Shown: positions 5,913 through 27,115 of the stretch, piece by piece
Numbering within the stretch: the stretch's first letter is position 1
Layout of the letters: every line of letters starts with the position of its first letter
Source: an uncultured Bacteroidales bacterium
Lineage (GTDB): Bacteria > Bacteroidota > Bacteroidia > Bacteroidales > UBA932
DNA: 32,227 nucleotides
Assembly (NCBI GenBank): GCA_946546175.1
Contig: CAMNNY010000164.1
Coordinates: forward strand, 1-32,227
Direction: 5' to 3'
The notes under the pieces: model-generated
Databases searched by the model: none
What the model was told of the DNA's origin: nothing
What the model saw: only the letters and a program-made list of their open reading frames with translations
Translations under genes and position numbers: made by a program

Positions 5913-8099
5913 TTAGTCGAGCGAAACAGGCGAATTGATGCTGAGCTGTTTGACTCTGGCCAGAGCACTCCAATCCTGGAGATAATAGCATGTGAAAGGA
6001 GTCGAACCTGTCAGCTTCACGGTTGCAGGACTCTGAGGCCTGCCCTCCAGACCTGCTTCTGTTGCCTTGCAGGTAAGATCGATGGTAATCTTACCGTTAG
6101 CAAGAGTAACAGAGCCGGAGACGGGATAGTAAGTGGTTCCCGTGAATGTGTTCTGCGCGTAGCAACGGGAAGATGCACCATATCTGAGAGGGATCAGAGC
6201 TCCGATCTTGGCCTCCGTGCCGAAGGTATAAGTACCATCCTGAACCGGAGTCGAGCAGAATCGGTTGTTGAAATTCTTCTCATAAGTGTAGTTCTCATCG
6301 GCAATAAGTCCAAGCATCACGCTCCATGTATCGTTGAAGTAAGAGTTGGAACCGATCGAGAAGACATTGCAGGCAACAGGATTGCTCTCGCCGTCAACGA
6401 TAGCGGGGAGCATGTTATTAGAGCTGTCGGCCCCGATATGGCTTCCATACCAGTATCCGATATAGACTGTTCCGGCAGCGCCGTCAAGCGATACGATCTC
6501 TGTATCGGCATCGATATGAGGTTTTGTAGCCTGATCGGTCGCCTTGCCAAGTACAACATTGACATCGATATTGAGGTCGAACTCATCTCCATATATCTGT
6601 TCAGTCCATTCATCATTCCATGCCCAGGGCTTAGCTTTGCCGGTGTACTTGAAATTGTACGTACCGTCAGAGTTCTTGGATATGGTTACACTGGTTCCTT
6701 CCGTGCTGACTTCAATGTTTCTTGAGTCGCCGTACAGATTGAAGCTGACATTGGTGAGCTGACCTGCCTGAGCAAGAAGAGTACCGTTCTTGTACTTGAG
6801 ATCAGGATCATTCTCCGGAGTAGAGAAGGTATAGGTTCCGACGGGAAGTTCATCGAGGTTGGCTTCACCTGCAGCGGAATAGAACGTGAACGAAGCAAAG
6901 CTGGCATTGGCTGCGTCTCCACCGACATAAGGAAGACGGACAGACACTTCCCAACCGTTCACTTTGGTCGTGAAGAAGGTCTCGTAATTGTTCTTCCAAT
7001 TGACCTGGCTGTATGTGGAGAAGAACTCTTCGGTAAGTTCAATCGCACCTGCATACGAGTAGTTGTGCTGAACACCTGCGGCATCGACAAGGATCGCAGT
7101 AATCTCGTATCCTTCCTCTGTCTGAGCGACAGTGATGGCGCCGTCGTAAATTACAAGTTCGCGTCCCTCGACGACAAGTCCGGTATAGTACTTCTCAGTA
7201 CCGGAGGAGGACTTGATCGAGAAAGTGTTGTCGGCATACTTACCGGCAGCGTCGATCTCATACTCGCCGGCAGGGATTACGTCGGTAGGATAGTACTCTC
7301 CTTCGAATTCATAGGTTTCTTCGTTGAACGTGAAACCGTTCTTGTTCAGAAGCAGAGTCACCTCGTCGCCCTCTTCGCTTACAAGGATGACCGCAAACTG
7401 CTGGTGGAGGTTCATCGTCCATGTCTCGGAATTGTAGGGTTCCTGGCTGTTGCTGAGGTAAACGGCCTCGGCACTCACGGTAGGAATCCATGCTGCCGAC
7501 TGAACGACCGTGTAGGTCTGTGAGTATCCGGGAGCTGCGATGGTGAAGCTGCCGGTACGGGGACCGAGTTCGGTGTTGGCGCTCACATGGACCTTGATCG
7601 TACCTTCCTTAGGAGCGGCTTTGGTGGCGGTCACCGTAATCCATGACGAATTCTCATCAGGAGTGACGGTATACTCAACGTTGGTCTTGACGGGGACGAG
7701 GAGGTCCTGGGCCTTGTCGTTGATGTTGAAGGTGAAACCGGTCTCAAGAACGGACTCAGTGCCCTGAACGACAGTGAAGACGGTCTTGGCAGATCCGACG
7801 GTGACGGTTACTTTTCCGCTGCGCTCTTCCCATGTATCGTTTTCCGATACGGAAAGTTTGAGGGTTACTTTCCCGGCCTCTCCGGAGGTCTGATCGGGAA
7901 CAATCCACTGCGAATCGCTTTCAGCAGTCCACGCTTTGGACGCGTTGAAAACGATTTCCGGAGCTGATGCATCCTTCCCCACCGTAAGGGTAGTACCCTC
8001 CAGGGTGATTGCATCTTCCGGCTCTACCGGCTCCTGCTGGCAGGAGACTGCAGCCAGTCCGATGAGGACCGAAACTGCGATTGACAAATACTTTTTCAT
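5913..8099 (-). CDS. BACON-domain lipoprotein with three diverged C-terminal repeats, last gene of the SusCD-protease operon
   Basis: The start MKKYLSIAVSVLIGLAAVSC carries a lipoprotein signal with Cys in the lipobox and an acidic, Gln/Glu-rich stretch after it (QQEPVEPED), consistent with export to the outer surface. ATG 8105 (adds MF) is an alternative start. Two BACON-type beta-sandwich domains follow, about 25-115 and 118-205, each ending in a TVVQ strand. The remaining 520 residues seem to contain three diverged beta-rich modules marked by IPAGEYEI, LPVGTYTF and VQDGTYTF, each followed by a Gly/Ser-rich strand pair. No catalytic motif is visible. It probably binds substrate or holds the surface complex. 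It follows the pseudoprotease gene by about 20 nt. Confidence 0.8.
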   Translation of the reverse strand: MKKYLSIAVSVLIGLAAVSCQQEPVEPEDAITLEGTTLTVGKDASAPEIVFNASKAWTAESDSQWIVPDQTSGEAGKVTLKLSVSENDTWEERSGKVTVTVGSAKTVFTVVQGTESVLETGFTFNINDKAQDLLVPVKTNVEYTVTPDENSSWITVTATKAAPKEGTIKVHVSANTELGPRTGSFTIAAPGYSQTYTVVQSAAWIPTVSAEAVYLSNSQEPYNSETWTMNLHQQFAVILVSEEGDEVTLLLNKNGFTFNEETYEFEGEYYPTDVIPAGEYEIDAAGKYADNTFSIKSSSGTEKYYTGLVVEGRELVIYDGAITVAQTEEGYEITAILVDAAGVQHNYSYAGAIELTEEFFSTYSQVNWKNNYETFFTTKVNGWEVSVRLPYVGGDAANASFASFTFYSAAGEANLDELPVGTYTFSTPENDPDLKYKNGTLLAQAGQLTNVSFNLYGDSRNIEVSTEGTSVTISKNSDGTYNFKYTGKAKPWAWNDEWTEQIYGDEFDLNIDVNVVLGKATDQATKPHIDADTEIVSLDGAAGTVYIGYWYGSHIGADSSNNMLPAIVDGESNPVACNVFSIGSNSYFNDTWSVMLGLIADENYTYEKNFNNRFCSTPVQDGTYTFGTEAKIGALIPLRYGASSRCYAQNTFTGTTYYPVSGSVTLANGKITIDLTCKATEAGLEGRPQSPATVKLTGSTPFTCYYLQDWSALARVKQLSINSPVSLD

Positions 8100-8124
8100 A
8101 AACATAACTATTATGGTTTTAAAG

Positions 8125-10506
8125 TTATTTCTTCAGGGCACCCTCGATGGTGGAGATGCTGTAACCTATCCTATCCTTGGCGTAATCGCTCCGGGCAGCG
8201 TCGCGGCACTTTAGAAGTATGCCATAAAGACGCTCCATCTCTTTTGCGCAGGCATTCTCAAGGGTGGAAGCGTAGAGGCTTTTGGGGAAAGGCGTCGGAA
8301 CTGAAACTGACACCTCGTCGGAAACAGCGGCCAAAGAGGCGGTTTTATGCATGTAATCAGAATAATTCCTGGCATAAACAGGAACATTTTTCATAAGACC
8401 CATGGAGATCCAGACTCCCATCAGGAAATCTTCTCCCTCGGGCACGGAGCCTTTTCTCAGATTGACTGTCACCTCATCCGTGATGTCGGAAAGCAGATCT
8501 TCAAGCCGGTAGGTACTGACGCCCAGTTTCTCTGCTGCTGCGGCCCACTTGAGACGGGTGATGATGCCTGTCTGATTGAGGGAATTTACTCTCATGAGCG
8601 GTGAAAATCCGTTGAAGGCACCGCTGAACTCAAGCAGAGCCTTGTTTGAATCCAGATAATCCAACTGGCTCAGACCTCTGAAAGCCGTAACCATAGCTTT
8701 TTTCTGGATCTTCCCGGGCACAGGCTCATACTTGGACCCCGACGACAGGTCGTGGATATACAGCCCGCCCACAAGACGGCCGAGCTTTCGATGCTCGTCG
8801 ATGTGGCGAAGCAGCATCTGTTCAGCCAACATCGACCGGAATCCTGTATTCTGCGGTACTGTTGCTTCCAACCATTCGGGGATACCGGCTGCAATAAACT
8901 TCAGCTTGGACATCGCTGTCGCATACTCTTCGAAAGGATCGTTGCCAAGATCCCCGGAGCAGACACGCGGATCCGGGCTGTCTTTCATTGCAGGCAGATA
9001 CAAGAAGGCCGGATTGCCGGCTTTCGAAGCAAGGATCGAGTCGGCAAGTTCACGGTCAGACTTCGTCCCTGCATCGGAATATATCCATTCGACAGCCATG
9101 AAATCGTACTGACCGGGCTTGTCGACTATAGTCTTCACGCCTTTTGCCACATCAGAAGGACGGGCAAGCGTGTTGAAAAGGACATCGTCAGTAACCGAAG
9201 CTGTGATACCATGCTCGCGGGTGAACTGCGGATCCCGAAGCTGGGCGGGCGAATAGGCGTATGAGCCGGCGGCATTGGCGCTCAGCCCGAGGGCTTTGGC
9301 AAACGCCTGCATCACGCGTGCGCTCAAGGCTTCACAGAAAGCGTCTTCGGGGGTATCATACTCCCTCCACCTGGGATCGACGTCTGCAATCTTGAGCAGG
9401 CCTTCCTGCCTCATGGCTGAACGCATACCGGCGGGAATGGTAATGCTGCACGACAATACCCTGCCGACAGAGCGGTCGGAAAGGACCGAAAGCGACGGAA
9501 GCTGCGAAGAACTGTGGAGGTCGGCAAAGACCTTGCTCACAAGGGGATTCTCGGCTGAGAAACAGCTGTCGCGCTCGAAGGGCCTGACCTCAACCGGAGA
9601 GCCGAGACCTGCAGCCTCGAAGGCTTCGTTCCACGCGAGCAGTCCCCTGCTCACGGCATCAAACTGGGACTGTGAGAAAAGCGTGTCGACATAAACGACA
9701 ATATGCTTGCCCTCAGAGATATCCCAGCGATTGATCACTTCCTGCGTTTCTATGCCTCTTTCTGCCGAAAAGACCTGACGGGGTGAATTGAGGGTGCCTA
9801 TGCGCCCATCTGCCACCCTCGGCTCGAACGGAGTATCCGGAACGACGGTAAGGACCGTAGCCACATCTCCTTCGAGTCTGAAAAGTTCTTCGTCAATTAC
9901 CTGAAGCATGCCTTTCCCGAGATCGTATGCAGGCGCGGCCTTGAATGTTACGTTCCTGACGACTCCCACCGAAGACGGATAAGCGACCAATTCCTTGAAA
10001 ACCGTGAATTCGTCCTGCGGGGTCGCTTTGTAGACCATGGCATTGGCATCGATCTGGATCCCTTTGGGATTGACCACATCTTTGTTGGAAACGCTGAAGA
10101 GTTTGCTTGCATCCACAACTACCGAAGTACTGTCGGCACTGCGGTACTTGATAGGGAAAACATAACGGACAGGAGCCAGGACAGATGCTTCAGTCTTGAC
10201 AAGAGGGCTGGAGAGAATAAGGAGCGAATCGGTCTTGGAGATCACGAACACTTCCTTCGAGGATACATCCTTTCCGCATGTGGTCCAGCCGGAAGAGCTT
10301 CGCATGAAAGAAGAAAGAATCACCCTGCGTCCCATCAGGGAGTCAGGGAACTCGAGCCAATACTTCTGGCCGTCTTTGTGGATGCGCAGACCGTCTCCGG
10401 CATGTTCGACGCCGGATTTGGAGAGAAACGCCGAATAAGAGACGGCCGCGGCATGGACTGCGATGCAGGCCGAAAGCGCAAGCAATGTTGAAAGTATCTT
10501 TTTCAT
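8125..10506 (-). CDS. Catalytically dead paralogue of the DUF5117-type zinc metalloprotease (pseudoprotease)
   Basis: This 793-residue exported protein (signal ending near IAVHAAA) is collinear with the neighbouring metalloprotease: EPRVADGRIG versus HPRIADPRIG, LLAWNEAFEAAGL versus VLQWNEVFERIGF, and KPGQYDFMAVEWIYSDA versus FGKYDYYAIRWGYTPV. At the zinc site the active enzyme has HEVGHTLGLMHN; here the segment reads QAFAKALGLSAN, so both metal His, the catalytic Glu and the third His become Gln, Lys, Ala and Ala, while LGL and Asn persist. The frame is intact and length is normal, so it is not a decaying pseudogene. I infer a structural, inhibitory or substrate-binding partner of the active protease. 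Its ATG overlaps the upstream stop codon by one base (TAATG). Confidence 0.85.
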   Translation of the reverse strand: MKKILSTLLALSACIAVHAAAVSYSAFLSKSGVEHAGDGLRIHKDGQKYWLEFPDSLMGRRVILSSFMRSSSGWTTCGKDVSSKEVFVISKTDSLLILSSPLVKTEASVLAPVRYVFPIKYRSADSTSVVVDASKLFSVSNKDVVNPKGIQIDANAMVYKATPQDEFTVFKELVAYPSSVGVVRNVTFKAAPAYDLGKGMLQVIDEELFRLEGDVATVLTVVPDTPFEPRVADGRIGTLNSPRQVFSAERGIETQEVINRWDISEGKHIVVYVDTLFSQSQFDAVSRGLLAWNEAFEAAGLGSPVEVRPFERDSCFSAENPLVSKVFADLHSSSQLPSLSVLSDRSVGRVLSCSITIPAGMRSAMRQEGLLKIADVDPRWREYDTPEDAFCEALSARVMQAFAKALGLSANAAGSYAYSPAQLRDPQFTREHGITASVTDDVLFNTLARPSDVAKGVKTIVDKPGQYDFMAVEWIYSDAGTKSDRELADSILASKAGNPAFLYLPAMKDSPDPRVCSGDLGNDPFEEYATAMSKLKFIAAGIPEWLEATVPQNTGFRSMLAEQMLLRHIDEHRKLGRLVGGLYIHDLSSGSKYEPVPGKIQKKAMVTAFRGLSQLDYLDSNKALLEFSGAFNGFSPLMRVNSLNQTGIITRLKWAAAAEKLGVSTYRLEDLLSDITDEVTVNLRKGSVPEGEDFLMGVWISMGLMKNVPVYARNYSDYMHKTASLAAVSDEVSVSVPTPFPKSLYASTLENACAKEMERLYGILLKCRDAARSDYAKDRIGYSISTIEGALKK

Positions 10507-12926
10507 TATCTTACGCCGTATTCGATTGTACTTTTAAGCAGTGAATAGTGAGCACCGTCCGGGCCCTTGCCGGCTCTCTTCTCAAGCAGCCTGAGCACCT
10601 TGTGGAGTTCGGCATAGACAGTGGACAGAGTAATCCGTCCTCCGCCAATAGACCTGGGCTCCCATTCGAAGCCTGATACCTCACTGTAGGTTATGCCGCC
10701 GAGTGCCGGGTCAGGTGCCATAAGATCGCAATGCGTCTGGGCGATGGCCTGCGGGGCCTCGCTGATATTGGGATTCTTGAATCCTGCGGTAGCCATCAGG
10801 CTCTCCACATAAATCCTCTGGAAGAGCCGGTCCGCTTCGGTGAGTTTTTTACCTTTGACCGTGCGCTTCCAGACATTGTCAAACAGGATATCGTTTACAG
10901 CCTTCATATCCAGCTGGTTACTCTCGATCCCATCGATTACCGCCGCGGCAAAAGGCTTAGACATAAGATTGGAAGCTATGCCTGTGCGGACACTCTCAAC
11001 CGGAGAACCTACGACAGGGAGCCTTCCCAGGACCTTCTTGTCTTCCATCCAGTCGAGATCGTTGTACATATTGAAGATTTCCTTGAGCGCACGCCTCTGG
11101 ACTGCCTCGGGCACGTTCTCAAATCTCTTGAAACCATCGCCGGGGACTGTTTCGTTGCGGTAAATGCCTTCGATGTTGGCCATGATGTGGCCGGCGTAAC
11201 GCATATACTGGTTGACGAGTCCCAGATACAACTGCGTCCTGTACTTCATGTCCGGATCGCTCTTGTCGTCTATCCAGTCCATGAAATTGGACATGATGTA
11301 CTTAAGGTTCCTGATACCGGCCGCAGTGGCGGCAAAAACATCATTGCTGAGGTCTTCGGTCTGGCAGCGCGGATCGAAGAAAAGTCCCATCTGCTGCTTT
11401 CCGTAGCGATAGACCGGGGAGAATGCGACGGAATCCGTTATCCACTGGGTGGTGATGCGGGTTTCCTCTTCAAAACTCCCGGCATCGAAAACCGGAGTGT
11501 ATCCCCACCGTATTGCATAATAATCGTATTTGCCGAAGCGTGGAGGAGTCAGCTTGACACCCCTTTCCTTGTCGCCGGGGCCGGCCACATAGTTGAAGCG
11601 GGCATAATCCATGATGGACATCGTAGTGCCGTTCTCGCTGCTGAAGGCAGGATCAAGCAACTGGTCCATGGTGATACAGGTAGAAGCACTCATATTGTGC
11701 ATCAGGCCCAGCGTATGTCCCACTTCGTGTTTGATGACATACATGAGTGCATCGCCGAGAACTTCCTTGGGTATATCGACGCTGCGCACATCGGGATCGG
11801 CCTGCGCCGTCTGGGCGAACATCCAGACGCTGAGAAGCTTGATAACACCGTGATAAACCCAGACGGAAGCATTGATGATCTCTCCGCTGCGCGGATCCAC
11901 CCACGAGGGACCCATGGCATTCTGGATTGCTACAGGAGCATAACGGATACAGTTGTAGCGAATGTTTTCAGGATCGAAATCAGGGTCGTCCTCGGGGAAA
12001 GGAAGCGCCTGCATGGCGTTTTTGAAGCCGATGCGTTCAAATACTTCGTTCCACTGGAGCACGGCATCCGCAATATAGGGCTTCCACCACTCGGGGAATT
12101 TGTCATCGATGTAGAAAGTGATAGGTTTTACCGGTTCGACGGCCTCTCCCCTTCGGTACGCAGCGGTATCGGAGGGCTCCAGACGCCATCTGTTGGCAAA
12201 CCAGATGTCTTTGGTCGTAGAATTGAGATCCTCCACGGCGGCGCGCCTGGTAAAGAAGAATCCGATTCGCGGATCTGCGATTCGCGGGTGGTAGATTTCG
12301 GAAGGAAGCAGCAGGAACGAAGTCACGCTCTCGACCGTGAACGGGATATTCTTGCGATTCTTGGAGTCGTAAGTATATGACCTGCTTACCGATACCGAGA
12401 AATTGTCGTCGAAAGACTTTGCAGAGACAATGTAAGAAAGATCCTTTTTATAGTTTTTCTTGAGTTCTCCACCGCCCATCGGGTTGGACTGGGTAGGATC
12501 GAGTTCTTTCCTGTCGGAAAGGAAATAGTCGGTCATATCGACAAGATACTTTCCTGACGGCGCATCTGACTTGAGCTTGAACTTTTCGACAGCCGCGCCC
12601 GTATGGCTTACAGAAAGAGCATCCATGATATTGCTCTCGGAGGAGAGGTAGTCAAAACTTACTTCCTTGAGACGGAGGGTACTGTCCACCATCTCGAAAG
12701 TGTAGAAATTCAGTCCGCCTACATCCTTGAGGCCGACATTGCCCAGACGGTTGTTGCTGGTAGACCTCACGGTCGTCGCCATAGCCCATGTCCTCCCAAG
12801 CAGGGTGTCGGGAATCTCCATGAGTATTTTCCCTTTTTCAACATAAGCCCTCACGGCAGTGGTATCCTTCCCCGCAGCGAGAAACTGGAGGGAAAGCAGA
12901 GCCAAAGCCAATACAATTCTTCTCAT
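10506..12926 (-). CDS. Zinc-dependent metalloprotease, DUF5117/DUF5118/DUF4953 type (active)
   Basis: An 806-residue exported enzyme with an N-terminal signal (MRRIVLALALLSLQFLAAG) and no lipobox Cys. A DUF5118-like start, a DUF5117-like middle (DIWFANRWRLEP) and the catalytic region follow. HEVGHTLGLMHN gives zinc ligands His400, His404 and His410 with Glu401 as general base, the metzincin-like HExxHxxGxxH pattern. MSIMDYARFNY about 35 residues later may supply the Met-turn. The C-terminal 350 residues are helical and typical of DUF4953. The family is common in Bacteroidota and little characterised. It probably acts in the periplasm or at the outer membrane on peptides delivered by the SusCD pair. 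It follows the PKD-like gene by 7 nt. Confidence 0.92.
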   Translation of the reverse strand: MRRIVLALALLSLQFLAAGKDTTAVRAYVEKGKILMEIPDTLLGRTWAMATTVRSTSNNRLGNVGLKDVGGLNFYTFEMVDSTLRLKEVSFDYLSSESNIMDALSVSHTGAAVEKFKLKSDAPSGKYLVDMTDYFLSDRKELDPTQSNPMGGGELKKNYKKDLSYIVSAKSFDDNFSVSVSRSYTYDSKNRKNIPFTVESVTSFLLLPSEIYHPRIADPRIGFFFTRRAAVEDLNSTTKDIWFANRWRLEPSDTAAYRRGEAVEPVKPITFYIDDKFPEWWKPYIADAVLQWNEVFERIGFKNAMQALPFPEDDPDFDPENIRYNCIRYAPVAIQNAMGPSWVDPRSGEIINASVWVYHGVIKLLSVWMFAQTAQADPDVRSVDIPKEVLGDALMYVIKHEVGHTLGLMHNMSASTCITMDQLLDPAFSSENGTTMSIMDYARFNYVAGPGDKERGVKLTPPRFGKYDYYAIRWGYTPVFDAGSFEEETRITTQWITDSVAFSPVYRYGKQQMGLFFDPRCQTEDLSNDVFAATAAGIRNLKYIMSNFMDWIDDKSDPDMKYRTQLYLGLVNQYMRYAGHIMANIEGIYRNETVPGDGFKRFENVPEAVQRRALKEIFNMYNDLDWMEDKKVLGRLPVVGSPVESVRTGIASNLMSKPFAAAVIDGIESNQLDMKAVNDILFDNVWKRTVKGKKLTEADRLFQRIYVESLMATAGFKNPNISEAPQAIAQTHCDLMAPDPALGGITYSEVSGFEWEPRSIGGGRITLSTVYAELHKVLRLLEKRAGKGPDGAHYSLLKSTIEYGVR

Positions 12927-12933
12927 TCTTATC

Positions 12934-14472
12934 CTATTTTAATGTTGATGTTATTGCCGTTATTTTTCCGAAGCCGCCATACACTCCGTTGTCCTTGAAG
13001 GTGAAAAGGCCGGTGCTGACATTGAATGGACGAAGGTAAATCTTTCCATCTCCGGTAGATTCATTGTACGTGCTGATTACGATCTGGAGCCGGTTGGTCG
13101 GAAGCTGGAATCTGTAGGAGGCTACGTCGTAGCCGTGGGTCCCGTACCAGCCCTGGGTATAGAATTTAATCCCGGTTATGATCTCGTCCGCATCATCGGG
13201 TTTCCAGGTCAGTTCACGGTAAGCGGGAGTGCCGCCGATCACCGCAACCGAATAGATCTTCTTGTCCGAAGCCATGAACAGTATCTCCGAATTGTCGCAG
13301 AAAGCATAGTACTTCACATCCGAATGCCACTGACTGTCATCAAGTGCGTAATAAGTCAGAATATTCTTTGTGGGTTCGGTATAGATGATATGGTGAGAAC
13401 CTGTCTTGTCTTCGATAAGAAAAGCGGCGGTTCCGTTCTTTCCGGCTCCGGCCCATAGAGATTTGCCTCCGGAAAGGTCGGCCGGAACAATCTCTGAGCT
13501 GGCAGAAAAACTGCCGTAGCCGGAGAATTGAGAGTGCATGTAATAGAAACGTCCTTCTGCCTCATTGAAGAACACGATGTCGCTCTGCTGGACAGCATAG
13601 GCATAGCCGACATTTGTCGGGGTGAACACATCCGAAGGCACTCCGGCATATCCGGCCTTGTTGAAGATATTGTTCGTATGTCCGATATTCAGGTAAAGCT
13701 GCCTGCCGATCTGGGCTGCGGTCATTATCTGTCCGTAGTTTATCAGGTTCCTTACGTTGAGAGTCGTCTCCTTGAGCCCGTTGAAGAGCGTTCCGTCCTG
13801 CTTCGCAATAATGAAAGTCAGAGGATCAAGGGCATAAAGATGCGAATCCGTGCCCACAAGGATCAATGTCTCGTTATAGACGGCGCCATCAGAGCGCACA
13901 ACCGGAAGCACGGCATTTACCGTCCCCTCCAGCGGCTCACCGTTGGCAAGGCTGTAGATGTTTCTGGTGTAACGCGGAGCGTCCATGTTGTATCCGTAGG
14001 TGGCGGCCTTGCAGGTGATCAGGTCGAAGTCGGTAGTCGCTCCGCCGTCGCGGGTATGCGCCACCAGTATACCTTCCCCAAGCGAAGATCTCACATAGAC
14101 AAAGCAGGACTTGGTCTTGGAGAGACCGGTCTGGGTATCAGTTGCTGTGAAAGAAAGGCAGTACGGTGCATCATTGGGCCGGTTGGCAACCCTGTAAGTC
14201 ACATCTGGCGTGTCTGCTATCACCATGCGGTCCTTGGAGACACCGGGACGGAAATCTATCGCCCACTCGTAGCTGAACGAATCATACTCTTCGCCCCCGA
14301 GAGTCACTGACGCTTCGAGAATGATATCATCCCCGTACAGCGTCTCAAGGGTGTCCGGTATTCCGCTAATCTCTATGTCCGGGATAGTGCGGTAAGCTAC
14401 GGTGCTCAGATCCTGATAGCAAGCGCAGAAGACAGAGACAGCAAGCAGTATTGCAGTAATGCGTTTGATCAT
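12934..14472 (-). CDS. PKD-like family surface lipoprotein
   Basis: The product has 512 residues with a lipoprotein signal ending in VFCAC (Cys about residue 18). A PKD/Ig-like domain comes first, about 30-130 (EASVTLGGEEYDSFSYEWAI to CFVYVRSS). About 380 residues rich in beta strands follow, with motifs such as LILVGTDSHLYALDP, ILFMASDKKIYSV and RFYYMHS spaced like blades of a propeller. This matches the PKD-like lipoproteins that regularly accompany SusCD, DUF4843 and DUF5117 genes in Bacteroidota. A substrate-binding role at the cell surface is inferred. Its start overlaps the stop of the DUF4843 gene by 4 nt (ATGA). Confidence 0.82.
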   Translation of the reverse strand: MIKRITAILLAVSVFCACYQDLSTVAYRTIPDIEISGIPDTLETLYGDDIILEASVTLGGEEYDSFSYEWAIDFRPGVSKDRMVIADTPDVTYRVANRPNDAPYCLSFTATDTQTGLSKTKSCFVYVRSSLGEGILVAHTRDGGATTDFDLITCKAATYGYNMDAPRYTRNIYSLANGEPLEGTVNAVLPVVRSDGAVYNETLILVGTDSHLYALDPLTFIIAKQDGTLFNGLKETTLNVRNLINYGQIMTAAQIGRQLYLNIGHTNNIFNKAGYAGVPSDVFTPTNVGYAYAVQQSDIVFFNEAEGRFYYMHSQFSGYGSFSASSEIVPADLSGGKSLWAGAGKNGTAAFLIEDKTGSHHIIYTEPTKNILTYYALDDSQWHSDVKYYAFCDNSEILFMASDKKIYSVAVIGGTPAYRELTWKPDDADEIITGIKFYTQGWYGTHGYDVASYRFQLPTNRLQIVISTYNESTGDGKIYLRPFNVSTGLFTFKDNGVYGGFGKITAITSTLK

Positions 14473-15263
14473 AACGATATGAGGGTTGAATAGATTGTGG
14501 GAATGACGGAAGGCTTTACACCCTGCCCTACCGGAGTATCCGCCTTGGGATAGTCTTCGTAGTCTTCGCTATGCATGTAGGGAGCATCGGGATGAGCCGT
14601 ATCGTGATCGCGAACCAGTTCTCTTACTCTTTTGTTGAGAGCGCTCCACCAGGTGGGGTCTTTGTAGATGAGTCCGTTCTCCGCAGTCACATCGCCTTTG
14701 GACCTGACACACTTGTCGATGTCGTCGCCATACTCTTCTACAAGAATCCTGTGGAGAGCCTTGCTGTATCCGGTACTGATATACAGATACCAGTTTTTCC
14801 AGACTGCAGGCACCGGACGCGCATACGAATCGGTCCACTTGACTACGGCCTTACTGTAAGCCGGCAGCCCCTCACGGAAAAACTCGTTGGGAACTATCGA
14901 GAGCACTATGACTTTTTGTTCTACTCCTTCCTTGAGGGCCTGTACCCTGATGACTATGTCGGCTGAGAGTTCTCCTGCCTTGATCACAGACGAGAGTATC
15001 TCATAGTCACCGGGGCCCGCAATGGAGTCCTTGACCTCAAGGGTAATCTCCCTGTCATAATCGGCCGGTATGCCCAGCACATTGACCTTGACATGAAGAT
15101 CCCGGTATTCTTCGGTCATTCCCCGAAGCGAAAATGAGTTCTCGACTCCGTCAAAATAAACTGAGCAGTCTTTCATGTTGAAAGTCTGAATCTCACTCTT
15201 CTCGCAGGAAGACAGAAAAACGGCGGCTGCGACAGCCAATAATAGTACTGTTATCTTTTTCAT
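14469..15263 (-). CDS. DUF4843 lipoprotein
   Basis: A 264-residue lipoprotein; the signal ends VFLSSC and the mature part begins CEKSEIQTF. An early SVYFDGV strand, a Calx-beta-like stretch with VKVNVLGIPADYDREI and IVLSIVPNEFF, and a C-terminal tail with PAVWKNWYLYISTGYSK fit the DUF4843 family, nearly always found directly downstream of susD in this type of locus. A function has not been established; a cell-surface accessory of the transporter is the likely role. It overlaps the susD stop by 4 nt and the PKD-like start by 4 nt, so translation of the three genes is probably coupled. Confidence 0.82.
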   Translation of the reverse strand: MKKITVLLLAVAAAVFLSSCEKSEIQTFNMKDCSVYFDGVENSFSLRGMTEEYRDLHVKVNVLGIPADYDREITLEVKDSIAGPGDYEILSSVIKAGELSADIVIRVQALKEGVEQKVIVLSIVPNEFFREGLPAYSKAVVKWTDSYARPVPAVWKNWYLYISTGYSKALHRILVEEYGDDIDKCVRSKGDVTAENGLIYKDPTWWSALNKRVRELVRDHDTAHPDAPYMHSEDYEDYPKADTPVGQGVKPSVIPTIYSTLISL

Positions 15264-16774
15264 AATTCCTGTTTTCTTCCGTAAGACAATTCATCGACAG
15301 GGTAAGGATATGCGCCAAGCGAAAGTATCCTGTTAAACCATGTCGGATCCAAATCGACATAAGAATTGCGTTTTGCCGCTATCCGCCTTGTGGCATAATA
15401 CGCAACGCCTTCTCCACAGAACTCCTTGAAATATTCCAGAAGGACGTTCTCATTATTGGAGGATGAAGAAATAAACAATCCATCCGCCGGGTCCTGAATG
15501 CCGCGGTGACGCCGTACTTCATAAAGGTTTTCATTGACCGACTCAGTATCGCTCCTTTCCGCCGCGATTTCGGCCATGATAAGGTACAGCTCGGAGACCT
15601 TGATCATAGGTACACGGTTACGGTATCCTTCGTAGTAGGAAGAGTTGTTGTAGTACTTGTAGGGACGGTAGTTGTCGCTGACAAACTTCAGCATGAGAGC
15701 CGGCCCCCTTATATCCTCCGCAGATGAGACAAAGGACGGATTGAAAAGCGACACATCGGCAATGGCCTTGTCGATGAGAAGTGATGACGAGCCAAGAGTG
15801 GAAGCATTGAAAATTAAAAGGTCGGTGAGATTTTGGAGCTCGCTTACTTCCAACGCAAATATCTGTTCGGAAGAGAAGGTCCAGTCTACTTCGTCATTGG
15901 ATGTCGCGCTGGTCATCGCCTCCGCATCAACCCACGAAAAGGCATTTGCCGCTTTGAGTTCGGCAATCAGGTCTTCTGCCGCACTGTAAGCGGAATCAAG
16001 TTCGGACTTGAACAACAGGACTCTGACCTTGAGGGCCTTGGCGGCAAAATAGTTCATTCGCTTGTCCCTGTTGTCCCAGAAGCCGTCGGCGTTGGCGTTT
16101 GCCATGAACGTTTCAGAGGCATTCCCCCTCACGGGATCCTCCGAGAGCAGTGTTATGGCCTCGTCAAGATCCTTCTCCAGAAGCTCAAGTGTCTCCCTGT
16201 AGTTTCTTTGGGGCGCGGGATCTTTGACATATTCAGTGCTGTACGGGATAGCCAGCTTTGCAAAATCATCTTCGGAAGTGAGCTGCGCCAGACCGAACAT
16301 GCGCATCATGTCGAAGTGGATATAGGCTCTCAAAGCCAGAAGCTCTCCTCTCATAAGATCTCGCTCGGTCTTGTCGGAGACAATTCCGGGGCGGGCATCC
16401 AGCTCATAAAGGACCTTGTTTGCGTTGGCGATCGAGAAATAACCGGCCTGCCACATATTGTGGAGAATGAGAATAAGCCTGTTGTCTTCCCATTTGTGGT
16501 TCTGGATAGCGGTAAAAACCGGACTGGATTGGGGAGCATACGGTCCGTAGACGAGTTCGTTCACATACCAGGTCCAATACGAACCGTATTCATATTCGCT
16601 GCCCATGCTGATGTAAACCCCGCAAAGGGCATCCTGAAAGCCGCTCCTCGAAGAATAGAGAGTCGCATCAGAGACTTGGGTGGAAGACGTAGCCTCCAGC
16701 CAACCGTTGCAGGAGCCCAGAAGCGACACGGCTACGGCAAGACTTAATGTATTCTTTATTATCTTGTTTTTCAT
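15260..16774 (-). CDS. SusD/RagB family outer-membrane lipoprotein
   Basis: A 504-residue lipoprotein whose signal ends SLLGSC, followed by NGWLEATSSTQVSDATLYSS, the usual SusD start. TPR-like helices with MRGELLALRAYIHFDMMRMFG and the late VSELYLIMAEIAAE region complete the family pattern, ending ...RILSLGAYPYPVDELSYG. SusD proteins form the lid over the SusC barrel and bind the nutrient. There is no sign of a starch-type operon here; the partner genes are proteases, so an oligopeptide or protein substrate is inferred. It starts 7 nt after the susC stop and overlaps the DUF4843 gene by 4 nt. Confidence 0.93.
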   Translation of the reverse strand: MKNKIIKNTLSLAVAVSLLGSCNGWLEATSSTQVSDATLYSSRSGFQDALCGVYISMGSEYEYGSYWTWYVNELVYGPYAPQSSPVFTAIQNHKWEDNRLILILHNMWQAGYFSIANANKVLYELDARPGIVSDKTERDLMRGELLALRAYIHFDMMRMFGLAQLTSEDDFAKLAIPYSTEYVKDPAPQRNYRETLELLEKDLDEAITLLSEDPVRGNASETFMANANADGFWDNRDKRMNYFAAKALKVRVLLFKSELDSAYSAAEDLIAELKAANAFSWVDAEAMTSATSNDEVDWTFSSEQIFALEVSELQNLTDLLIFNASTLGSSSLLIDKAIADVSLFNPSFVSSAEDIRGPALMLKFVSDNYRPYKYYNNSSYYEGYRNRVPMIKVSELYLIMAEIAAERSDTESVNENLYEVRRHRGIQDPADGLFISSSSNNENVLLEYFKEFCGEGVAYYATRRIAAKRNSYVDLDPTWFNRILSLGAYPYPVDELSYGRKQEL

Positions 16775-16781
16775 GGCGGTA

Positions 16782-19700
16782 TCAGAATGACGCGTTTACA
16801 CTCAAAGAGAACTTCCTGGCGTAGGGATAGGAAGTGCCTCTTTCAATGTCGATGGACGAGAAAGTGTATATATCGTTAGTATAGAGAGTGATCCTCAGTC
16901 GGCTGAGTCTGAGCGAACTTACCAGCCGCGTCGGGAACTCATAATAGACGGAAGCCGAAGACAGATGCATCACATTGTTTTTCTGGACGAAGCGGCTGGT
17001 TGGCCGGGTAAAGTAGTTGGACGCCGTATTCTGGGCTTTGTAAGGAGCCACATCTCCGGCCTTTGCCCAGCGGCCGCTGAACACCCTGCGGTCTACATTA
17101 TTATCAAGAGTAGTATTCTCGACCTTGTCCAGGAGAGTGCTGTTGTACAGATAGCCTCCGGCATAGAAAGTTGCTACGAAGTTGAACCCGAATCCTTTCA
17201 CTTCGCCGTTGATACCCACATTTCCGTTGACAAGAGGATCGGACGAACCGCAGTTGTACAGATCGGCGGGATTCCACGTTGTGGTGATATTGCCATTCCT
17301 GTTGATATACACCTCGTTGCCGTCGCTTGAGTTGATTCCCAGAGAGCGGACGACCCAGATGGAATGCAGGGGCATGCCGTCGTAGTACTGGATGACCGGA
17401 GCGGTGGCGCCGACTTCCTTGGCAAGGGCCTGCTGCTGCTCATTGAAAGCCTTGAGCGCATCGGAGATCCTGAGGACGCGGTTGTCGTTGAAGGCTGCCT
17501 TTCCAAAGAGATTGATATATGATGCTCCGCTCCTGTAGAGAGTCCAGTTGACGCTCAGTTCTACACCTTTGTTACGGACCATGCCCATATTGTCGTTGGT
17601 CATGGGAAAACCGGTCGAAGGCAACAGCGTCCTTGAGAACACGAGGTTGCGCGTGTCGGCGATATAGGCGTCCGCAACGATATTGAGATTGCGTGTGCGG
17701 AAATCGATTCCTATGTTGTAGTCCATCTTTTCCTCCCAGCCCAGCTCGGGATTGGCCATATTCTGGAGGTAGGCACCGGTGAAGCCGCTATAGTAAGCCG
17801 ATGAGTAATACTGATAGACGGGAAGCGCTACATTGGTGGTGTAGTTCTGGTTACCGGATGAGCCCAGGCTCGCCCTGAGTTTGAGTTGGGTCACCCAGTC
17901 GGCATAGTCTTTCATCCACTGCTCGTTGTGGAGGTTCCACGCAAGTCCGGCGCTCCAGAACACGCCCCAGTGGTTTTTGGTTCCGAACACAGAGGATGCA
18001 CTTCCCTTGATGGTCGCGTCAGCCATGTAACGGTTGTCGTAGCTGTAACCTGCAGTCGCGAGAGCGCCGAGGTTGCGGTTGAGTCCGTCGGCCCCGGTAG
18101 GCACGGAATTGTCCTGATACTGACGGGCGAAAGTAATGCTCTTCATGTTGCTGTTCGGGAAGCCTTCCGTGTAGTTCACTATCTCCTCGTAGTTGGTCTG
18201 GGAGATACTCCAGTCAACGGTTCCGAAGATGTCGTGCTTGCCGCCTATGTTGTGGTTCAGCTGAGCGGAGACATCGCCGGAATATGTGGTATACCGACCG
18301 TTGGACTGGGTGTACCGGCCTCTTCTAAGGATGTCGGCAGTCTCCACAAAACTGGTATGCTGCCCGGGATAGAACTCGTCCGACCTTGTATTCTGGGACT
18401 CGATTCCGAACCTGGCTACCATCCTGAGCGACTTCATGAACTGGTATTCCGCATAGAAATTGTTCGTGACGGAAAGATACGAACTGGTGTCGGTAGTTCC
18501 GATAGTGGCGTTGTACATCGGATTCGTCACCACTTCTCTGGAGACTGATACTCCCTCGTACGTGAAAAATCTGGTCTGGAGAACTTTCTTCAGGTTGCCC
18601 TCTTCATCGTAAGGAGAAAAATAAGGGTTCAGTGCTGCATATTCTGAGAAATTGCCCCATGGAGACTCTGCGCTGTTCATGTGGGAGATACCCATGATAT
18701 TGCGGAAAGTCCATCCGCCGCGCCTGTAGGCGATATTTACATTGCCACCGAACACATCACGGAAAGAACCTTTCATCGCACCCTGGGTATCGTTGTAAGA
18801 GAAGGTAGCCAGAGCCTTGAGTTCTTTCGAACCGAGCTCGATGCTCACCGAATGCTTATGCCCGATACCAAGTCTCAGCGGTTTCGAGAGCCAGTATGTA
18901 TCTTCTCCTTCCATGGCTCTTTTAAGCCTTTGGCTGTAAAGGGCCTGAAGGGCGAAAGTCTCAAACGAACTGTCGTTTTTGTAGTAGCCCTCGCGGCGCT
19001 CGACCTCGAGTTTCTCAAGGGAATTACACAGATTGTAACTTGTAAGGTCGGGGGCTTCAATGGAGAGGCTTCCATTATAGGTCACACGGCTCTTGTCGTT
19101 GGTCAGAGCCTTAGTCTCGATTACGATGACGCCGTTGGCGCCCTTGGATCCGTAGATTGCTTTTGCAGAGGCGTCCTTGAGGATGGTAATGCTCTGGACC
19201 CTGTTCATATCCATGTCGGTTATCTTTTCGAGGGTGGTCTCAAAACCGTCCAGGATGAACAGAGGCTGGTTCGCCTTCGAAAGGAAGTTGCTTTTGAGGC
19301 CGGAAGTTTCGGCCGCGAGGGTGGAGGCTCCACGGATCTGCATAGAGGCCATTGCATTGGGGTTCGATCCGGCCTCAAGGTTGTCGAGAATAACGAGCGA
19401 GGGGTCCATGTTTTTGAGCGACTCCACGACATTGCTGTTGGAGACCCTCTTGATATCGTCACTGGTCATCGACTGGACCGAGCCCGTAAAACTCTCCTTG
19501 CTGCGGGTAAAGATACCGGTGACAACGGCTTCCTCAAGCATCTGAGAGTCTGGCTCCAAGTAGACAGTCACATCGCCTTTGATCTGGGAAACCTGTATTT
19601 CATAAGGCTTGTAGCTCACCATTTCAACGGTGAGGACGGCGTTAAGAGGAACGCTTTTGATAAAAAACTTACCGTCGATGTCGGTGGTAACGGCGATTTT

Positions 19701-19874
19701 TAGCTTGCGGTTCATGACGACCACGCCGGGGAAAGGCTCCCCCGCCTCATCATAGACGGTTCCCTGGACCTGACGGGTATTCTGCGCCCGCCCGAGAGGG
19801 ACAAAGAGCACAAAAAAGAACACGACGGCCAGAACCCTCGATATAGATATCTTGGAAAAGGACATAACCAACAC
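16782..19874 (-). CDS. SusC/RagA family TonB-dependent outer-membrane transporter
   Basis: A 1030-residue barrel protein, first gene of the seven-gene operon. After a signal peptide (VLAVVFFFVLFVPLGRAQ) comes a CarboxypepD_reg-like domain (QVQGTVYDEAGEPFPGVVV, about 35-110), then the TonB-box/plug region (LEEAVVTGIF, SMQIRGASTL, PLFILDGFE, ITILKDASAKAIYGSKGANGVI) and a beta-barrel ending in the aromatic YPYARKFSLSVNASF. It imports large nutrients across the outer membrane using TonB energy, with SusD as lid. ATG 19874 gives a leader of about 10 nt from the predicted promoter; ATG 19865 (MSFSK) is also possible. There is no adjacent anti-sigma/ECF pair or hybrid two-component regulator, unlike many such loci. 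Confidence 0.94.
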   Translation of the reverse strand: MLVMSFSKISISRVLAVVFFFVLFVPLGRAQNTRQVQGTVYDEAGEPFPGVVVMNRKLKIAVTTDIDGKFFIKSVPLNAVLTVEMVSYKPYEIQVSQIKGDVTVYLEPDSQMLEEAVVTGIFTRSKESFTGSVQSMTSDDIKRVSNSNVVESLKNMDPSLVILDNLEAGSNPNAMASMQIRGASTLAAETSGLKSNFLSKANQPLFILDGFETTLEKITDMDMNRVQSITILKDASAKAIYGSKGANGVIVIETKALTNDKSRVTYNGSLSIEAPDLTSYNLCNSLEKLEVERREGYYKNDSSFETFALQALYSQRLKRAMEGEDTYWLSKPLRLGIGHKHSVSIELGSKELKALATFSYNDTQGAMKGSFRDVFGGNVNIAYRRGGWTFRNIMGISHMNSAESPWGNFSEYAALNPYFSPYDEEGNLKKVLQTRFFTYEGVSVSREVVTNPMYNATIGTTDTSSYLSVTNNFYAEYQFMKSLRMVARFGIESQNTRSDEFYPGQHTSFVETADILRRGRYTQSNGRYTTYSGDVSAQLNHNIGGKHDIFGTVDWSISQTNYEEIVNYTEGFPNSNMKSITFARQYQDNSVPTGADGLNRNLGALATAGYSYDNRYMADATIKGSASSVFGTKNHWGVFWSAGLAWNLHNEQWMKDYADWVTQLKLRASLGSSGNQNYTTNVALPVYQYYSSAYYSGFTGAYLQNMANPELGWEEKMDYNIGIDFRTRNLNIVADAYIADTRNLVFSRTLLPSTGFPMTNDNMGMVRNKGVELSVNWTLYRSGASYINLFGKAAFNDNRVLRISDALKAFNEQQQALAKEVGATAPVIQYYDGMPLHSIWVVRSLGINSSDGNEVYINRNGNITTTWNPADLYNCGSSDPLVNGNVGINGEVKGFGFNFVATFYAGGYLYNSTLLDKVENTTLDNNVDRRVFSGRWAKAGDVAPYKAQNTASNYFTRPTSRFVQKNNVMHLSSASVYYEFPTRLVSSLRLSRLRITLYTNDIYTFSSIDIERGTSYPYARKFSLSVNASF

Positions 19875-24608: not shown

Positions 24609-25832
24609 TTACTTGTTGATATTAGGGTGCTTCTCGGCAAAGCCTTCTGGAAGTGCGCTCTTGTGGATCATGATATCGAGGGTCTGACCCTTTACGAACT
24701 TCTCGCTGGCATACCAGATTCCTTTGTACTTGCCGGTTTCGCCCCATGAGTTCTTGACAAGGTAGTATTTGCCGCCCCACTGGTCTTTGGCAATACCGTA
24801 GATATGCATACCGTGATCGTCGGTCATGGTCTTGTTGAGGAAATCGGCCTGACGCTGCTCCTGTGAGACTTCCTTTTCCACTACATTATTGGTCTTGGAG
24901 CCGTTCTTGGGAGCCTTCTTGGCATCCTTGGCCTCGGCATAACCAACCCAATGCGCCTGGTCGGATCCTGCATTGGTAGCTTCAACGTCGGCAAGGATGG
25001 CAAGGCCGTCACGGGTAAATCCGGGCTCGCTTACATCTGCGCCCCAGGCTGCGGTATAGCCATTGTTGAGAGCGTTCTCGAGGATCTCCATAAGTTCGTC
25101 GATGGGGACATTGTAGACTTCGTCCCAGCGCCAGTTGTCACAAACCTCCAGTGGGAACCAGGTATAGAAGGGGTGGTGTGTGAAAGAGGTAAGGGTCACA
25201 TAGTCATCGGGGTTGAATCCGAGGGCGTCGCGATAACTCTCCGGAGTGTATTTCTTACCGTCCACCGAGAAGGTCTCGGGATACTCTCCAAGATACTCGT
25301 CAAGGATAGCCTGGAAACCTCTCTTCCATGCGGTCGTGAGAGTCCTGTTGGGATTTTTGGCTACGGCTCCGATATAGGCCTTGAGAACGGCGTCGAGTTC
25401 GGCCTGCTTGGGAAGATCGGTACCATAGTTCATACCTGTCATCTCGGCATTGGGCACGATACCGTAGTCACGGATGACATCGAGCACATCGTCCGCCTCG
25501 CTGCCGGCAGCGAAGGTGAGGTTTCCGTCGAGCATCACATATTTGTCGGCACGGTCGGAGTAAGAGTGGCTGACAACGAAGAACTCCGAGAAATCGGGGA
25601 ACTTGGCCGTATCGGTGATGCCGTTGAGACGGATCACCTCAGATTCCACAAAACTGATAGTAGAATATGCCCAGCAGGTACCGCTGCTCTTCTGATTCTT
25701 CACGGAAGTGACGGGGTTCTCCTTGACGGTAGTAAATATATACTCGGGGAAGTTCACTTTGGGTTTCTGGGCCTGGGCGAAAGCTCCAAGCGAGACGGCA
25801 AAGAGGCCGGCCACAACAATAATCCTTTTCAT
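24609..25832 (-). CDS. Secreted C1-family cysteine peptidase (bleomycin hydrolase/aminopeptidase C-like)
   Basis: A 407-residue protein with a signal peptide (MKRIIVVAGLFAVSLGAFAQ) and the papain-fold catalytic set: NQKSSGTCWAYSTISFVESE (Gln and Cys53), DDHGMHIYG (probable His340) and YLVKNSWGE (Asn361). SQFV-like spacing and the long insert between Cys and His, including HHPFYTWFPLEVCDNWRWDE, place it in the bleomycin-hydrolase/PepC branch. Unlike cytoplasmic PepC it is exported, so it probably trims peptides in the periplasm. It is the first gene of a five-gene operon with pssA, probably driven from the box at 25876. Confidence 0.9.
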   Translation of the reverse strand: MKRIIVVAGLFAVSLGAFAQAQKPKVNFPEYIFTTVKENPVTSVKNQKSSGTCWAYSTISFVESEVIRLNGITDTAKFPDFSEFFVVSHSYSDRADKYVMLDGNLTFAAGSEADDVLDVIRDYGIVPNAEMTGMNYGTDLPKQAELDAVLKAYIGAVAKNPNRTLTTAWKRGFQAILDEYLGEYPETFSVDGKKYTPESYRDALGFNPDDYVTLTSFTHHPFYTWFPLEVCDNWRWDEVYNVPIDELMEILENALNNGYTAAWGADVSEPGFTRDGLAILADVEATNAGSDQAHWVGYAEAKDAKKAPKNGSKTNNVVEKEVSQEQRQADFLNKTMTDDHGMHIYGIAKDQWGGKYYLVKNSWGETGKYKGIWYASEKFVKGQTLDIMIHKSALPEGFAEKHPNINK

Positions 25833-25918: not shown

Positions 25919-27115
25919 ATGAAAAGAATAACATCTCTGATAGCCGCTGTTTTGGTCCTGGCATCGTGCCAGCAAGAGCCCAAGGGCAGGACGACGCGTG
26001 GAGAAAGGCTCAATCTCACGGCAGAAGAGTCAGAACATATCGCCAGCGGCGATCTCATCGGGGTCAACATGGACTATCCCCTCTCGTACCGCAATGTCCG
26101 CACCTCATATTCCGGAGGCAAACTCACTCCGGTCAATCCCCTATACTGGCCCAAGGCCATGCCCGACAGCGCTGTCGCTTTCAGGGCATACTTCCCCTAC
26201 GACGAGCGCTTCAACGAAGGCGGCAAAGTGGTATTCTCGGTGTATCCCGACCAGAGAAACGATAAGGACTTCAGGGCTTCCGGGCTTTTTGTCAGTGAAA
26301 CCCGCGCTTCGGTTTCCGACCCTGCCGTAGTATTCAGGTTCGAGCCAAAGATGACTAAACTTGTACTGTATGTACGCAACGATACGGGAAGTGAAATCAA
26401 CGACGTCTTTTTCAGCGCCTATCCGTCGGTGACTTTCAACATGGACAGGAACACAGTCAAGGTCAGCGGTGACAAAGCAGAACTTCACGCTCACCTCAGC
26501 GCGACCTCAAAGGACGGAGTCAGCGCCTACGAGGTGATATTCGCGCCTCAGAACACCTTGCTCTCAATCACGCTGAGCACCGCGGGCGGTGATTATTCGG
26601 CTGTTCTCGGTTCAGTCGGCCAGTTCGCTGAAGGCAGACAGTACTCCAATTCCAGGCTTCTTGTATTGGAATCAGGTCATTCGACCCCCTATCCCTTCAC
26701 CGTCTCAGAACAAGATTGGGCCACGTCTCCCGACTTTAAATATAAGGAGCCGCTTGCAGGAGGTGCCGAACTCGCAGAATTCACCGACCCCGGTATCTAC
26801 AAGATAGCAAAAGGGGTCGCCACTCCCATCAAGGCATTCGTCGGAGGTCTGGACCAGACGGCTATCGTCTCGCGCAACTCCGCCCTCTCCGAATGGAGGC
26901 TCCAGAATCCTTCTACCGGCGAATTGCTTAGAATCAGCACCTCTGCCGCCGCCTTCACCGAAGAGACTTCAGCCGATCTCTCGGTCCGCAGCTATGGGAT
27001 AGCCGGTTTAGAAAGCGAATTCACCTCAAAGGCGACTGTAGTCAAGGCCGACGGAGAAATGGTATGGCTCGTCGACGAGAATGAAAAATACGGCTACATC
27101 ATCACTGTGAAGTAA
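25919..27115 (+). CDS. Fimbrillin-like (Mfa-like) lipoprotein
   Basis: A 398-residue lipoprotein with signal MKRITSLIAAVLVLASC and mature start CQQEPKG. IASGDLIGVNMDYPL, the SYSGGKLTPVNPLYWP stretch and AFRAYFPYD follow the order seen in the fimbrillin/Mfa-like family, with a second beta-rich domain after about residue 150. These proteins are surface lipoproteins; true fimbrillins polymerise after protease removal of an N-terminal strand. No chaperone or anchor genes (Mfa2-5 type) are next to it, so it is probably not part of a full pilus locus. It sits 5 nt upstream of the C10 peptidase gene, so a shared function, such as a surface partner or propeptide-like regulator, is possible. Confidence 0.75.
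   Translation: MKRITSLIAAVLVLASCQQEPKGRTTRGERLNLTAEESEHIASGDLIGVNMDYPLSYRNVRTSYSGGKLTPVNPLYWPKAMPDSAVAFRAYFPYDERFNEGGKVVFSVYPDQRNDKDFRASGLFVSETRASVSDPAVVFRFEPKMTKLVLYVRNDTGSEINDVFFSAYPSVTFNMDRNTVKVSGDKAELHAHLSATSKDGVSAYEVIFAPQNTLLSITLSTAGGDYSAVLGSVGQFAEGRQYSNSRLLVLESGHSTPYPFTVSEQDWATSPDFKYKEPLAGGAELAEFTDPGIYKIAKGVATPIKAFVGGLDQTAIVSRNSALSEWRLQNPSTGELLRISTSAAAFTEETSADLSVRSYGIAGLESEFTSKATVVKADGEMVWLVDENEKYGYIITVK

Follow-up and report, generated by a model that had tools for sequence, protein, structure and literature searches.

The 32,227-nucleotide stretch of Bacteroidales DNA analysed here (the window) contains an operon read entirely from the minus strand. It begins with a SusC/RagA TonB-linked outer-membrane transporter of 1030 residues (16782..19874; TIGR04056, E 7.9e-166), whose closest solved chains are SusC homologues and RagA, and continues with a SusD-like surface lipoprotein of 504 residues (15260..16774; PF14322 and PF07980), a DUF4843 protein of 264 residues (14469..15263; PF16132) that is also kept in the operon of other species, and a likewise kept PKD_2 family protein of 512 residues (12934..14472; PF16407). 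Two large genes follow. Gene A encodes a DUF5118/DUF5117/DUF4953 zinc metalloprotease of 806 residues (10506..12926; PF16313, E 2.7e-83) and gene D a full-length, inactivated paralogue of 793 residues (8125..10506; PF16313, E 9.6e-43), both predicted to be exported. The last gene encodes a BACON-domain lipoprotein of 730 residues (5913..8105; PF13004, E 3.2e-19), and the same position is held by such a gene in many related operons. SusC and SusD, surface lipoproteins and a degrading enzyme thus lie in one operon, as is characteristic of a SusCD nutrient-uptake locus. As far as the 1.73-Mb assembly goes, in which the window is contig C164, A and D are the sole DUF4953 genes of the genome; RUG489, a metagenome-assembled Bacteroidales genome, holds a dead copy 95% identical to D.

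An earlier note, made from the sequence alone, had described two full-length paralogues translated back to back, and this is indeed their arrangement: base 10506 is common to both reading frames, within a TAATG stop/start overlap (10504..10508) that couples their translation. The order given there is also correct, because on the minus strand the 'first' gene is the one with the higher coordinates. An open frame of 549 codons antisense to the active protease gene (10731-12380, plus strand) is probably spurious, a by-product of codon usage. Elsewhere the window encodes a C10 (streptopain-like) peptidase with a Spi-type propeptide (27121-28875, plus strand), directly 3' of a fimbrillin-like gene (25919-27115, plus strand), and a C1-like peptidase (24609-25832, minus strand), and thus carries several protease genes.

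A and D score 280 and 147 bits against PF16313 (cut-off 24.2), both match the DUF5117 profile PF17148, and they align with 25% identity over 636 columns (E 5e-43), which identifies them as paralogues. The zinc site of A, HEVGHTLGLMHN (residues 400-411; 11694..11729, minus strand), reads HEVGHTLGLMH and fits HExxHxxGxxH; a Met-turn, SIMDY, follows at residues 437-441 (11604..11618, minus strand). At the aligned positions D has QAFAKALGLSAN (9274..9309, minus strand) and the Met-turn remnant SVTDD (9184..9198, minus strand). Replaced are H400, E401, H404, H410 and M439, that is, the three metal ligands, the catalytic glutamate and the methionine of the Met-turn, while L406, G407, N411, S415, G433, S437, D440 and N445 are unchanged. 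The loss of every ligand and of the glutamate amid preserved surroundings, which the earlier note had pointed out, is hence borne out by the alignment and extends to the Met-turn. Judged by these residues, D is a homologue of the DUF4953 'Met-zincins' (PF16313 with PF17148/PF17162), but a non-catalytic member.

Both proteins start with a hydrophobic export signal, usually devoid of a lipobox by a rule of thumb rather than a trained predictor; the signal of D in the window does contain 'LSAC', and the cysteine is missing there in close relatives. Confident AlphaFold2 models were obtained for A (pLDDT 84.9, pTM 0.88) and for D (pLDDT 79.2, pTM 0.82), and the latter retains the former zinc helix (residues 387-405). 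Searches of the PDB with both models gave no match with E < 0.001; guesses about an interface are therefore not transferable from solved structures. Sequence matches to metzincins were weak and confined to the surroundings of the motif (ECXA, E 0.22; E 0.012 using a profile). Neither A nor D matches an M16 profile in Pfam, and the motif is HExxH, not the inverted HxxEH.

How widespread is this arrangement? Adjoining genes for an active and a dead DUF4953 protease are carried by gut and rumen bacteria. Genome-wide searches and fetched loci together yielded 57 tandem pairs (51 from a first survey, then L224, L229 and L230, L263, and L304 and L305), of which 56 have one intact site, a single pair (L185) has two and none has zero. 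The active copy lies upstream in 52 pairs and the dead copy in four (L184, L176, L224 and L305). Pairs occur in the genus of the window, in another genus of the same family and in several further Bacteroidales families, including named, cultured Butyricimonas genomes (L034, from Butyricimonas synergistica, and L036), and outside Bacteroidales in two families, f142 (G1074/G1084) and f121 (G927). The two genes overlap in 24 of the 51 pairs of the first survey, and most remaining gaps are within 20 bases. Dead copies in that survey always adjoin an active copy save for three that sit at contig ends, so that chance pairing and genuinely lone dead copies can be dismissed. Because a profile of dead copies would bias the search, a second survey used the Pfam family profile; it found an intact site in 46 of 46 checked solo copies (a further solo place, G504:C16, lies outside this count) and one dead copy in each of 16 tandem loci. 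Outside that survey, one apparently solo copy departs from the intact-solo pattern: L233:891-3578 (G185:C113), on a contig that starts 891 bases upstream of it, has HEVGHCLGLMLN, in which HExxH is kept and the third histidine is replaced by leucine. Orthologues of D are nearly all dead as well, in many species and families, which eliminates a recent, local loss of the site, and the residues at the old site vary widely from one dead copy to another.

The usual setting of the pair is the order SusC-SusD-DUF4843-PKD-A-D-BACON, and related SusCD operons with A but no D also exist, implying that D is dispensable for some members of the family. The pair is likewise found without any transporter: L182 and L183 stand amid housekeeping genes (NADH dehydrogenase-like, amino acid kinase, AMP-binding enzyme). 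The earlier proposal that a complex is dedicated to a SusCD port is right in part: the majority of pairs do lie in SusCD operons, but the conserved unit is the pair, not the port. At L180 (8399-18689), Mfa2-like and large fimbrillin-like genes come after an active/dead pair, in place of SusCD.

The dead copies are maintained proteins, as indicated by dN/dS values of 0.08-0.19 among close relatives, with about 0.1 for active copies; these values come from comparisons with usable dS, a pair with dS > 2 being excluded. The aligned dead copies contain no stops and no frameshifts. D changes at a higher rate than A (mean distance 1.06 vs 0.62). Its conserved positions belong nearly all to the scaffold common to A (W292, F296, G300, G348, N411, G433, N445, G465, D468, Y476), and the released ones comprise the ligands, the glutamate, the methionine and the cleft strand 327-366, which is most conserved in A. 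Since this strand is the most relaxed part of D, substrate binding via the old cleft is not favoured. Within the genus of the window, dead copies show strong conservation between the dead site and the Met-turn, with an entropy minimum at residues 407-446. A selected, non-catalytic role for D, as the earlier note had suggested, is well supported by the occurrence of dead copies across families, the conserved pairing and the strong selection; the idea has likewise withstood the two checks that the note had set for it, a search for homologues of D that keep HExxH and one for a lack of conserved pairing with relaxed selection.

In trees built with the motif columns taken out of the alignment, the main dead copies group together, and the branching within their clade follows that of the active partners as far back as Butyricimonas (the clade has support 68 when the long-branched L178 copy is included). 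A single origin of every dead copy is rejected (p-AU 6e-78). Separate cases of inactivation are the upstream copies of L184/L176, the pairs L186/L263, the pair L305 and the f142 pairs; on these trees, the site requires at least 5-6 inactivations, provided that lost sites were never regained. Sister to the upstream-dead pairs L184/L176 is the pair with two intact sites (L185:8773-13898, in G675), a natural intermediate.

Roles are exchanged within a single genus of f142, where L224 (G1074) has an upstream dead and a downstream active copy and L304 (G1084) the reverse. The upstream copies are mutual nearest relatives (45% identity, 815 bits) and so are the downstream copies (49% identity, 838 bits), each sister relation with support 100. 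L224 alone had left a swap undecided (p-AU 0.15-0.18); its congener L304 settled it, and a tree without a swap, in which the dead copies of both loci are joined, is rejected (p-AU 1e-67). As a cause of the swap, gene conversion at the motif is made unlikely by the flanks, which retain paralogue-specific letters up to the motif; residues 361-420 are equivocal, and a very short conversion tract at the motif itself may be the sole remaining alternative. The upstream protomers of L224 and L304 have a lipobox-like signal (ITACQ, NVACQ) that is lacking in the downstream protomers, so that in this lineage one member of each pair may be anchored in the membrane.

Do A and D evolve as a unit? Distances between loci correlate at r = 0.94 for A and D. 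As neighbouring genes share a history, the distances of SusC, SusD and PKD were held constant, and the partial correlation of A with D is then 0.68 (0.73 by rank; 0.61 in a thinned set), equal to the highest for any gene pair of the operon. The known SusC-SusD complex gives 0.47 and SusC-PKD 0.67 (0.39 by rank), while the directly adjacent genes PKD and A give -0.07 (0.26 by rank), a value too small for linkage to be the sole source of the co-divergence. The partial correlations of D itself with SusC (0.33) and SusD (0.17) are weak. The operon appears to fall into two modules, {SusC, SusD, PKD} and {A, D}, which speaks for A and D being a single unit, short of proving contact; inheritance as a cassette, or similar rates and rate quirks of paralogues, can also produce co-divergence, and some 47 pairs are too small a set for coevolution between residues.

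How might a dead protease serve an active one? We consider it somewhat probable that A and D form an asymmetric hetero-oligomer, in its simplest form a heterodimer, in which D is the non-catalytic protomer. A would carry the single zinc site of a periplasmic peptidase, and D would give structure, help to grip or orient the substrate, or stabilise A. The pair would usually degrade a protein or peptide imported by the neighbouring SusC/SusD, and would have arisen when the gene of a self-associating enzyme was duplicated in tandem and one site, now dispensable, was lost. A duplicated, self-associating protease needs one site per dimer, so that one or the other site is free to decay although both chains are still needed, and a swap of roles comes naturally where either protomer of a former homodimer could carry the lone site. 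We infer physical contact and a self-associating ancestor along with periplasmic export and a peptide substrate, the location from export signals without a lipobox and the substrate from the importer genes and from a prolyl-oligopeptidase-like gene downstream of the pair in L186. Such a heterodimer predicts exclusive pairing, translational coupling, co-divergence, repeated loss, the absence of dead/dead pairs and of dead copies on their own, and roles that can be interchanged, and all six are seen. Among the roles that the earlier note had offered for D, the heterodimer is favoured by the co-divergence, the translational coupling and the exchange of roles. More tentatively, and at somewhat worse than even chances, we envision selection for exactly one active site per pair, with either subunit free to be the dead one, in a homodimer-derived heterodimer that was inactivated in many lineages and whose roles were exchanged.

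Alternatively, D might be an inhibitor or folding chaperone dedicated to A, keeping it inactive or assisting its folding up to its arrival at the proper location or substrate; D would then leave or be degraded, with no part in the working enzyme. Obligate neighbourhood, coupled translation and specific co-divergence would fit this equally well, and D outpaces A in evolution, as inhibitors often do. We regard it as rather unlikely all the same, because the many solo copies of A argue that the enzyme needs no inhibitor as a rule, because the enzyme mostly comes first in the gene order, and because the swap between L224 and L304 is harder to explain if an inhibitor must have turned into an enzyme. 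A receptor or carrier that hands peptides from SusC to A in the periplasm, without stable contact, would suit the location in SusCD operons and the well-conserved segment between the dead site and the Met-turn in the genus of the window. It is quite unlikely in view of the weak partial correlations of D with SusC and SusD when compared with that between D and A, the retention of pairs away from SusCD, and the poor conservation in D of the edge-strand part of the cleft. These two models cover some of the observations only, and neither explains the exchange of roles.

That D now catalyses a different reaction, at a site elsewhere in the protein, would agree with its full length and the strong selection on it, but is very improbable: nearly all conserved positions are those of the shared scaffold, with no conserved polar cluster in replacement, and the old-site residues differ widely between dead copies. 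Ordinary decay of a redundant, functionless duplicate has in its favour the faster evolution of the dead copies and is scarcely credible in the face of their intact frames, dN/dS of about 0.1, cross-family conservation and repeated retention.

Tandem active/inactive metallopeptidase heterodimers are an established kind of enzyme, in the M16B family and in Csd1/Csd2. In M16B, one of two adjacent bacterial genes specifies the active subunit and the other its inactive homologue (SPH2681/SPH2682, TTHA1264/TTHA1265), a pairing also seen in the mitochondrial processing peptidase MPP, and the inactive subunit is required for function; BHP, another member, is a homodimer with two sites, so that homo- and heterodimers both exist (PMC12731061, PMC11266112). 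The DUF4953 pairs resemble the M16B alpha/beta pairs in the conserved tandem of homologous active and inactive genes (56 of 57 pairs here), but the families are unrelated. M16B enzymes have an inverted HxxEH and clamshell halves of about 50 kDa; the present pair has HExxHxxGxxH with a Met-turn, about 800 residues per chain, DUF5117/DUF4953 domains and no solved relative that we found, and shows repeated loss and swapped roles. The Helicobacter pylori M23B proteins Csd1 and Csd2, an active zinc LytM and its degenerate, metal-free paralogue, have been crystallised as a heterodimer (PMC5053510). They are alike in their neighbouring active and degenerate genes, and differ as peptidoglycan hydrolases of another fold with a role in cell shape and no importer operon; the DUF4953 pair is known from genes and single-chain models. 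Pectobacterium FusC, an M16 protease, acts together with a TonB-dependent transporter on a protein that is taken up (PMC6071955), but as a single chain serving iron acquisition from ferredoxin. Zinc sites have also been lost in metzincin pseudopeptidases such as ADAM1 and ADAM2, which are kept for protein-protein contact (PMC11266112); these are animal membrane proteins rather than operon partners of an active enzyme. Related as well are the solo DUF4953/DUF5117 metalloproteases of Bacteroidota, with the same family, architecture and often the same SusC-SusD-DUF4843-PKD operon, but no dead partner and an intact site in all checked. Within the open-access literature we found no paper naming DUF4953 or DUF5117 or treating SusCD pseudoenzymes, and none on active/dead pairing or role swapping in this family, which is weak evidence as subscription papers are mostly missing there.

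In the same literature, we found no other bacterial case of a metzincin-like enzyme paired with a pseudoenzyme, and none with repeated loss and swapped roles. If selection does retain exactly one site, then an enzyme with one dead site outperforms one with two. The natural variants, with both copies alive, the upstream dead or the downstream dead, constitute a ready test of why one site is kept, and the cultured Butyricimonas strains with the pair make it open to experiment. The SusCD systems of gut bacteria, in which glycans have been the focus, would gain with the pair a processing protease made of two parts.
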